Source: Bacteroidia bacterium
GTDB taxonomy: Bacteria; Bacteroidota; Bacteroidia; UKL13-3
NCBI GenBank assembly: GCA_018058135.1
Contig: JAGPCK010000008.1
Span: 1 to 64,000, forward strand
Direction of reading: 5' to 3'
Length of the DNA stretch: 64,000 nucleotides
Under the pieces are notes generated by a model that saw only the letters and a list, made by a program, of their open reading frames with translations, was not told the DNA's origin and searched no databases. Positions 6,174 to 10,384 of the stretch are shown here, one piece after another. Position numbers and translations under genes: made by a program. How positions within the stretch are numbered: the first letter of the stretch is position 1; every line of letters begins with the position of its first letter.

Positions 6174-6326
6174 ATGAATAATCACGATAACACTAAATCA
6201 TTGGTAAACGAAGAAGAAATCAGGTATGCGCGAAAGAACCTGACCTACACGCAGCGCTTTGATTTGCTGATGAAATTGGTGCGACTCAATAAATTGATGA
6301 AGTCGGCAAAAATCATCAAGCCGTAA
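6174..6326 (+). CDS. 50-aa protein, putative partner of the nucleotidyltransferase
   Basis: The frame runs from an ATG behind a -7 box to TAA and encodes 50 residues, starting MNNHDNTKSLVNEEEIRYA and ending KSAKIIKP. The middle (RFDLLMKLVRLNKLMK) is predicted to be a basic amphipathic helix. The stop is six bases before the nucleotidyltransferase gene, so they form a two-gene operon. Small helical proteins placed directly before nucleotidyltransferase-fold proteins are often antitoxins, and that is my inference here. No sequence family was recognised. Confidence 0.65.
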   Translation: MNNHDNTKSLVNEEEIRYARKNLTYTQRFDLLMKLVRLNKLMKSAKIIKP

Positions 6327-6332
6327 ATTCGC

Positions 6333-6803
6333 ATGGATGTTTTAGATGAAGATATTCTAAGCATTTGGCGTAGCCTGCATCACTTTAATGTTCAATACAT
6401 CATGGTAGGCGGTTTTGCCACCAACATGCATGGCTTCAGTCGTATTACTGCTGATTTGGATATTTGGATAAAAGATACTCCGGAGAACAGAAAAAATTTC
6501 AGAGCTGCACTGAAAGAAGCGCAAATGGGCGATTTGGAAGAGATTGAAACTACTGATTTTATTCCCGGTTGGACCTCGATTTACCTGAGTTCAGGTATGG
6601 AGTTAGATATAATGACGTACTTAAAAGGTTTTCCGGAAGAACGTTTTGATGAGTGTTATGCTATAGCCCCGGTGGCAGAAATTCATGATATTCCTATTCG
6701 ATTTTTACACCTGAATCATTTGCTGGAAGCTAAAAAGGCTACAGCACGTCCGAAAGATTTATTAGATATTGAAGAGCTAAATAAAATCAATAAACCCTTA
6801 TAG
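6333..6803 (+). CDS. Minimal nucleotidyltransferase (DUF6036/AbiEii-like)
   Basis: The 156-residue protein has the nucleotidyltransferase-fold signature: MVGGFA at residues 24-29 (the GG motif), DLD at 41-43 (two metal-binding aspartates) and a third aspartate at 92 in MELDIM. It matches the single-domain nucleotidyltransferases related to MNT toxins and AbiEii/DUF6036 proteins, which can transfer nucleotides to tRNA or to partner proteins. A 50-residue protein is encoded directly upstream, which suggests a toxin-antitoxin module. All catalytic positions look intact. The target is not known. Confidence 0.8.
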   Translation: MDVLDEDILSIWRSLHHFNVQYIMVGGFATNMHGFSRITADLDIWIKDTPENRKNFRAALKEAQMGDLEEIETTDFIPGWTSIYLSSGMELDIMTYLKGFPEERFDECYAIAPVAEIHDIPIRFLHLNHLLEAKKATARPKDLLDIEELNKINKPL

Positions 6804-8545: not shown

Positions 8546-8914
8546 ATGGCCTTAGAATTAACAGGAAAAATCGTTCAGAAGCTGAACAAAACAGAAGGCG
8601 TTAGTAAAGCCGGAAAAAACTGGAGCAAACAAGAATTCGTTATTGAGACACAGGAAACCTATCCGAAGAAAGTTTGTCTGAGTGTAATGAATGAAAAAGT
8701 GAGTGAGCTGGAGAAGTTCTCTCCCGGAACAGTAGTGACCGCTTCACTCAACATTGAATCACGCGAGTATAACGGTAAATGGTATACAGATGTGAGAGCA
8801 TGGAGAATTCAACCCGTTAGCGGTGGAGGCTCATCTGCTCCCGATGATACTTTTTATCCTGATGCTGAACCTCCGTTTGCAGCAGATGAAGCAACGGATG
8901 ATTTACCGTTTTAA
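8546..8914 (+). CDS. DUF3127 protein with SSB-like acidic tail
   Basis: The 122-residue protein has a beta-rich domain at residues 1-92 (ELTGKIVQKL, SKQEFVIETQ, GTVVTASLNI, WYTDVRAWRI) that matches DUF3127, which I judge to be OB-fold-like from the strand order. A flexible Gly/Ser/Pro/Asp linker follows, and the protein ends in ATDDLPF. Bacterial single-stranded-DNA-binding protein has the same plan: OB fold, disordered linker, acidic tip ending D-D-I/L-P-F that recruits repair proteins. The stop is three bases before cysS. I infer a nucleic-acid-binding role; this is not established for the family. Confidence 0.85.
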   Translation: MALELTGKIVQKLNKTEGVSKAGKNWSKQEFVIETQETYPKKVCLSVMNEKVSELEKFSPGTVVTASLNIESREYNGKWYTDVRAWRIQPVSGGGSSAPDDTFYPDAEPPFAADEATDDLPF

Positions 8915-8917
8915 TGC

Positions 8918-10384
8918 ATGAGCAGCGAGCTTAAAATTTACAATACACTTAGCAGAGTAACCGAAAAATTTACTCCCCTGCACAACGGCCATGTAGGTAT
9001 GTACGTATGCGGTCCCACGGTATACAGCAACGCCCACTTGGGCAATGCACGCACCTTTATTTCATTTGATGTTATTTTCAGGTATTTTCTTCATTTGGGT
9101 TACAAGGTACGTTACGTAAGAAACATTACCGATGCCGGACATTTGGAAAGTGATGCTGATGAAGGGGAAGATAAAATCAGTAAAAAGGCCAAACTCGAAC
9201 AACTGGAGCCGATGGAAATTGTGCAGCGGTACACCATCGATTTTCATAATGTGATGAGCGCATTCAATGCACTTCCTCCCAGCATTGAACCCACAGCTAC
9301 CGGGCATATCATGGAACAGATAGAGATGACCAAAAAAATCATCGCCAACGGATATGCATATGAATCTAACGGAAGTGTTTATTTTGACGTAGCTAAGTTT
9401 GCAGCAGAATACAACTACACCGTACTCACCGGCAGAAACCTGGATGATTTGCTCAACAACACCCGAGAGTTAGATGGACAGGAAGAGAAGAAAGGACGAT
9501 TGGATTTTGCGCTTTGGATAAAAGCGAAACCTGAACACATCATGCGTTGGCCAAGTCCGTGGGGAGAAGGTTTTCCCGGTTGGCACCTCGAGTGTTCGGC
9601 CATGAGTTCTAAATACCTGGGAGAAAAATTTGATATACATGGTGGCGGTATGGATTTGGCACCTACGCACCACACCAATGAAATTGCACAGAACATTGCC
9701 TGCAACCACAGCTCACCGGCCAACTATTGGATGCATACCAACATGCTTACCGTAAACGGACAAAAAATGAGTAAGAGTTTAGGTAACTCGTTTTTACCGT
9801 TTGAACTTTTTGCCGGAACGCATCAACTGTTGGAGAAAGGTTACAGCCCCATGGCAGTTCGTTTCTTTATGCTGCAGGCGCACTACCGCAGTACGCTTGA
9901 TTTCAGCAATGAGGCATTACAGGCCGCAGAGAAAGGTTTTGCCCGGTTGATGAATGCGGTGAAACTAATTGCAGGATTAAAAACTTCAGCACAATCAACG
10001 TCTGACATTACCCAACTATCGGCTAATGTGTATGCTGCCATGAATGATGACTTCAACACACCTATTGCCTTGTCGCATTTGTTTGAAGGTGTGCGCATCA
10101 TCAACAGTGTGAACGATGGAAAGGAAACTATTACGGAGGAAGACAAGGCAACATTGCAAAAGCTGATGTTTGATTTTGTGTTCGATATTTTAGGTTTGAA
10201 AGAAGAACAAGCTGCAAACAGCGATAAGGTAGACGGTTTGATGCAGATGATTTTGCAACAACGCGTGGATGCCAAAGCCAGAAAAGATTATGCAGCTTCT
10301 GACCTCATTCGCGATAGGTTGAAAGAACTGGGATTCGAAATAAAAGACGGAAAAGAAGGAACTACTTACACCTTTTCAGGCTAA
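8918..10384 (+). CDS. cysS: Cysteine--tRNA ligase
   Basis: CysS charges tRNA-Cys with cysteine in the cytoplasm. All class I features are present: the zinc ligand Cys31 (YVCGPTVY), the HIGH-like AHLGNAR at 39-45, further zinc ligands Cys226 (LECS), His251 and Glu255 (HHTNE), and KMSKS at 283-287. The length (488 residues) is normal for the family. It starts three bases after the DUF3127 gene and is followed ten bases later by the M28 peptidase gene, so the three are probably co-transcribed. Confidence 0.97.

Follow-up and report, generated by a model that had tools for sequence, protein, structure and literature searches.

Canonical bacterial SSB is a homotetramer or a two-OB dimer. In the E. 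coli protein, Trp40, Trp54, Phe60 and Trp88 stack on single-stranded DNA (ssDNA), and the C-terminal tip has RecO, PriA, RecQ, primase and others as partners. The phage proteins T7 gp2.5 and T4 gp32 are also OB-fold ssDNA-binding proteins and use an acidic C-terminal tail for protein contacts, but they are unrelated in sequence to DUF3127, the family studied here, and their tails do not end in D-D-L-P-F. Bacterial SSB (PF00436, including E. coli SSB and S. aureus SsbA) and DUF3127 have in common an SSB-type OB fold, a disordered linker and an acidic-hydrophobic-Pro-Phe tip; the Pro-Phe end is a known docking element of SSB (PMC5531588), and the function of the SSB tip is also treated in PMC5872125. 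DUF3127 differs from SSB in that it is shorter, falls under the PF00436 cut-off and coexists with SSB in the chromosome. PriB also has an SSB-derived OB fold and a similar size, but it lacks a C-terminal interaction tail (PMC8509808), whereas both tail and tip are conserved in DUF3127. The SsbB and SsbC paralogues likewise are second ssDNA-binding proteins beside a main SSB, yet they belong to PF00436, of which tail-less paralogues also occur in these Bacteroidota genomes, and DUF3127 is a separate sequence family.

The phage SSBs gathered in phrog_4932 (gp13 of Cellulophaga phage phi13:2, gp21 of phi10:1 and proteins of Flavobacterium phages) are members of the same family over their full length, tip included. 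They differ in being phage-encoded and apparently the sole SSB, under an annotation ("single strand DNA binding protein" in PHROGs and in RefSeq phage records) that is based on similarity; no experiment on them was found in the literature searched. For a Pantoea phage SSB, matches to the SSB domain as well as to DUF3127 have been reported (PMC8004638), and the equation of DUF3127 with SSB is indeed already latent for phages. For the chromosomal protein, a full-text literature search returned no study; the name DUF3127 turned up in a single paper, PF11325 and phrog_4932 in none, and NCBIfam has no model matching the protein of the window; the mobile-element ssb product of a Bacteroidales overexpression study is not identified as DUF3127 in the part of that study that was available. 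An earlier note on this DNA had given the family no assigned function, which holds for the chromosomal family, without an NCBIfam match, and fails for the phage copies. What is added here is a chromosomal copy that is near-universal in its class, a strongly conserved tip, coexistence with SSB and reciprocal tip losses. We propose that DUF3127 is probably an accessory ssDNA-binding protein of the SSB superfamily, which would share the tip-binding partners of SSB and act in parallel to it.

The gene and its predicted fold

The window is the whole stretch of DNA that was analysed, 64,000 nt of a Bacteroidia bacterium contig (JAGPCK010000008.1), and the features of its DUF3127 gene are collected in Table 1. 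ORF, Pfam and AlphaFold2 (AF2) agree with the earlier description of a 122-aa protein built of a beta-rich domain, a disordered Gly/Ser/Pro/Asp tail and the ending ATDDLPF: residues 3-90 are ordered, residues 91-122 are of low confidence, and the C-terminus reads AADEATDDLPF. PF11325 covers residues 4-89 with 106.6 bits against a curated cut-off of 27, and residues 3-122 match positions 1-117 of the 117 in the phrog_4932 profile (3.1e-24). Profile matches to IF3_C, FosB and copper-ATPase were set aside as chance. The gene does lie three bases 5′ of cysS, as had been noted, since its stop ends at 8914 and the ATG of cysS (PF01406, 2e-99) is at 8918. A cysS operon was nevertheless discarded as a functional clue because the linkage is not conserved: only 1 of ~170 chromosomal relatives (L163) has cysS within a few kb, ~2 kb off and on the opposite strand. 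The genome of the window, 84% complete, contains this sole DUF3127 gene and two canonical SSB genes, one encoding a tail-less protein and the other a protein that ends in GGDDLPF, with its last five residues identical to those of DUF3127. Elsewhere in the window, at 6174-6803, a 50-aa ORF is immediately followed by a DUF6036-like nucleotidyltransferase (E 0.00098, below cut-off), an arrangement resembling a small two-gene nucleotidyltransferase module.

Table 1. Features of the DUF3127 gene and its product, in window coordinates.
Feature	Position	Strand	Basis
DUF3127 gene, 122 aa	8546..8914, stop included	+	ORF (ATG start); Pfam PF11325, E 7.6e-31; PHROG phrog_4932, E 3e-24
OB domain, residues 1-90, predicted pI 9.1	8546..8815	+	AF2 pLDDT ~97, five-strand OB topology; Foldseek SSB/PriB
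Beta4-beta5 hairpin REYNGKWY, residues 73-80, candidate ssDNA-contact residues	8762..8785	+	Alignment, conservation counts
Disordered Gly/Ser/Pro/acidic linker, residues 91-117	8816..8896	+	pLDDT 53-67; diverged pairs ~9% identical by position
SSB-type C-terminal tip DDLPF, residues 118-122	8897..8911	+	PF end in 162/164 chromosomal copies; 81% tip identity at <40% OB identity

With the family alignment as input, AF2 returned a model with a mean pLDDT of 86 (~97 over residues 1-90, 53-67 in the tail), in which strands at residues 3-12, 16-19, 25-35, 42-48, 63-75 and 78-90 and a helix at 50-55 make up an OB fold. Foldseek against the PDB gave 132 matches at E ≤ 0.001, the best with E 6.4e-6, and all of the 50 listed are bacterial or mitochondrial SSB or PriB, with TM-scores by target mostly of 0.5-0.74; SSB and PriB are therefore the closest solved relatives among the matches listed. 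The presence of PriB chains (1woc, 4apv, 2ccz) among the top structural matches brings in the main rival explanation, in which DUF3127 would be a primosome adaptor of the PriB kind, with an OB fold derived from SSB; at stalled forks it would link PriA to the replicative helicase, touching ssDNA weakly and using its tip mainly to hold PriA. Grafting the SSB C-terminus onto PriB yields a chimera with improved ssDNA binding that stimulates PriA (PMC8509808), so that the architecture is workable under either reading. Natural PriB, however, has no tip (PMC8509808), and we regard the adaptor role as unlikely, also in view of the gene neighbourhoods described below.

How much of the relation to SSB can be read from sequence? 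A 92% full-length hhalign match was rejected as proof of homology, since it leaned on the tip and dropped to ~11%, within shuffled nulls, once the tail was removed. The OB profile of the whole family does not rise above column-shuffled nulls against SSB in hhalign, whereas that of an SSB-like subtype, characterized by a longer beta4-beta5 hairpin with GREWxNPQGExKYF, matches SSB at 86% with a score of 35-37, the shuffled maximum being 29 in 150. Because only this subtype beats the null, the claim is carried by the fold and the tip and not by the sequence, from which alone homology of DUF3127 to SSB would be a weak case. The profile alignment with SSB begins only at DUF3127 residue 44, and the N-terminal motifs of SSB have no visible counterpart. 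PF00436 does not match the window protein and matches 2 of 76 members weakly (best 0.024, under cut-off). In four phage records weak matches to this profile (E 1.8e-4 to 5e-3, below cut-off) fall only on the DUF3127 gene itself, as does likewise the weak match in one chromosome (G290). A search of PDB sequences with the family profile produced weak matches only, the best being a replication factor A-related OB protein with E 0.4.

The same profile alignment places Y75 on the equivalent of SSB Trp88, which is one of the four ssDNA-stacking residues of E. coli SSB and is replaced by tyrosine in S. aureus SsbA (PMC5531588), and this position is aromatic in 72 of 76 members. Aromatic residues are also conserved at positions 79 (76/76; W79 in the window), 39 (75/76) and 80 (73/76; Y80), and R73 is conserved in 73 of 76. 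These residues bear on a second rival, according to which the OB domain would bind no ssDNA (or would bind RNA or protein instead) and the tip would act merely as a decoy that titrates or regulates SSB partners. Such a decoy agrees with the whole-family OB similarity to SSB lying within the null and with the versatility of OB folds, to which weak IF3_C matches in 7 of 76 members can be added. We nevertheless find it very improbable, because aromatic and arginine residues are conserved on the SSB-like DNA face, the nearest folds among the matches listed are SSB and PriB only, and DUF3127 lies amid recombination genes in phages where canonical SSB is not recognisable.

Conservation of the C-terminal tip

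The acidic tip is kept at the C-terminus across the family. A Pro-Phe end is present in 162 of the 164 distinct chromosomal DUF3127 members from genomes of the phylum Bacteroidota, and in 159 it is preceded by the acidic and hydrophobic residues, whereas a PF end occurs in only 4 of the 509 control ORFs (200 aa or longer) from the same loci, one of the four encoding an SSB. Just five columns of the 76-sequence alignment are conserved at 90% or more, namely G7, G61, R73, P121 and F122. In diverged pairs, those whose OB domains are less than 40% identical (32% on average), identity is 81% over the final five residues and ~9% over the preceding 15 when compared by position, which indicates a strongly constrained tip beside a free linker; SSB has the same pattern of constrained tip and freely varying linker. 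Among phage and plasmid copies, 46 of 57 distinct sequences end in PF, and a few phage copies are entirely without a tail.

A tail of this kind might instead serve autoinhibition only, folding onto the OB domain and tuning DNA binding with no partner docking. The charges of the window protein would suit such a role, with an OB pI of 9.1 (family median 7.8) and a tail net charge of -8, and a Klebsiella SSB structure has part of the C-terminal region in the ssDNA-binding site (PMC8509808). However, autoinhibition requires charge, and the invariant part of the tail is the specific Pro-Phe end by which SSB is known to dock (PMC5531588), so that we give this reading very little credence, as the least probable of those considered.

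Chromosomal, phage and plasmid copies

DUF3127 occurs in 222 of the 395 sampled genomes of the phylum. Within the window's own class it was found in 95 of 97 among the genomes listed, and outside the class it is patchier; of 14 named control genomes, only Bacteroides has it. Two near-complete genomes of the class have no DUF3127 gene, and thus the protein is not essential in every host. Canonical SSB is also present in 36 of the 37 DUF3127-bearing genomes checked. The idea that DUF3127 could be the sole SSB of one family (f19), raised by a genome in which SSB is missing (G024), was abandoned, as SSB is present in 22 of the 23 f19 genomes checked; the absence in G024 is probably an assembly gap.

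The neighbours of the chromosomal gene vary by family. In one large family DUF3127 is preceded by a flavin-reductase-like gene and followed by a leucyl/phenylalanyl-tRNA-protein-transferase-like gene, and in two related genomes (L182, L183) a divergent gene resembling dnaN (beta clamp) lies beside it together with a DnaQ-type exonuclease-like gene, all of these identities being read from the sequences. No DNA-repair operon or consistent primosome operon was found around chromosomal DUF3127, and the differing neighbours point to a stand-alone housekeeping gene. With regard to a PriB-like adaptor, the dnaN-like gene that divergently adjoins DUF3127 in these two genomes speaks for it, whereas the lack of a consistent primosome operon speaks against it, as do the phage copies, which are found as often with annealases or exonucleases as with primases. 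In one genome (G077, L310) DUF3127 is split across two overlapping frames, by a recent frameshift or a sequencing error.

The gene is also encoded in 123 phage records and, where a host is named, this is nearly always a member of the Bacteroidota. It lies near RecT, an SMC-like ATPase and an MBL-fold hydrolase in Cellulophaga phages phi13:2 and phi19:3, near YqaJ exonuclease and NinG in phi10:1 and Nekkels_1, near RecT and NinB in Freya_1 and Danklef_1, near Erf, YqaJ and a primase in P12024L, and near Erf, exonuclease VIII and a primase/helicase in Panino; in one further context, a primase/helicase with NinG stands beside it. Canonical SSB (PF00436 over cut-off) was detected in none of 37 DUF3127-bearing records, which comprise 17 phage records, 1 plasmid and 19 viral contigs, the contigs possibly being fragments. 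Because canonical SSB does occur elsewhere among the phages of this host group (80 Flavobacterium phage records), its absence beside DUF3127 is meaningful.

Some mobile copies depart from the general architecture. In the Runella plasmid pRUNSL03 (L298), DUF3127 is located downstream of traK-traO in the conjugative transfer region and reads into a different, degenerate and tip-less C-terminus, for a total of 189 aa, as if fused or truncated. The copies of the Polaribacter phages Freya and Danklef and of Flavobacterium phage 1/32 (L290, L291, L295) have no tail at all, and in Freya and Danklef NinB lies close upstream.

A proposed role beside SSB

The tip conservation, the predicted OB fold and the phage context support what the earlier note had proposed, a further single-stranded-nucleic-acid-binding protein with access to the SSB interaction network. 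Of the two outcomes that the note had named as refuting its proposal, a tip not conserved in the family and a predicted structure lacking an OB fold, neither was observed. Computation establishes the fold, the conserved tip, the coexistence with SSB and the phage context, and it is from these that we infer ssDNA binding, the choice of tip partners and the process that the protein would serve. In the mechanism that we envisage, the basic OB domain would hold ssDNA through the conserved aromatic and arginine residues of the beta4-beta5 hairpin, and the disordered acidic linker would present the C-terminal DDLPF, which would dock in the SSB-tip pockets of genome-maintenance enzymes such as RecO, PriA, RecQ and primase. 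DUF3127 may in this way coat a subset of ssDNA and recruit the SSB interactome beside canonical SSB; in Bacteroidota phages it appears to act as the phage's own SSB.

Should this hold, two SSB-superfamily proteins would operate side by side in most Bacteroidota, major gut and environmental bacteria among them, and would compete for or share the same repair and restart enzymes; reports of SSB effects in the phylum would then have to weigh both. An unassigned Pfam family would also gain a function, and it would be explained how phages with no detected canonical SSB may coat replicating DNA.

Textbooks hold that SSB cannot do without a tip of its own. If SSB and DUF3127 share partners and one of them must carry the tip, reciprocal tip loss is to be expected, and lineages with the tip on one protein only do exist. 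In all five genomes of genus g3 of family f3 (G007, G414-G417; L139, L324-L327), the only canonical SSB is without Pro-Phe and ends in LNPEDNE, LNPEDNG, LNPEDHT, LNPEDND or SADEEED, its acidic tail being kept. DUF3127 ends in GDDLPF or EDDLPF in four of four of these genomes, the fifth being an 89%-complete draft with no DUF3127 match. The reverse is seen in family f14 (L110, L114, L322, L323), where in all four DUF3127 proteins the OB domain is kept and the C-terminus remains acidic but ends in VDDE, VDDD or DEEDEA, without Pro-Phe, and SSB retains DDDLPF or NDDLPF in 4/4. These events are few and could be coincidence. Tentatively, we suggest that SSB and DUF3127 might share one tip-dependent network in which the hub role passes between them, so that in some lineages a tip-less SSB would coat the DNA and DUF3127 would be the sole DDLPF-bearing hub; we hold this possible, with doubt prevailing. 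If DUF3127 shares the partners of SSB as proposed, lineages with the tip on one protein only would be a natural experiment on why the SSB tip is indispensable.

A near-complete genome (G012; L317/L342) is a possible third case with the tip on DUF3127 only. In its relatives (L344, L345) a mutY-like/ssb/gldE-like cluster encodes a tailed SSB, which was not found in G012; a divergent second SSB could have escaped detection there. Its only detected PF00436 protein is tail-less, with 114 aa and the ending LLLGGK, and its DUF3127 ends in DDDDDLPF.
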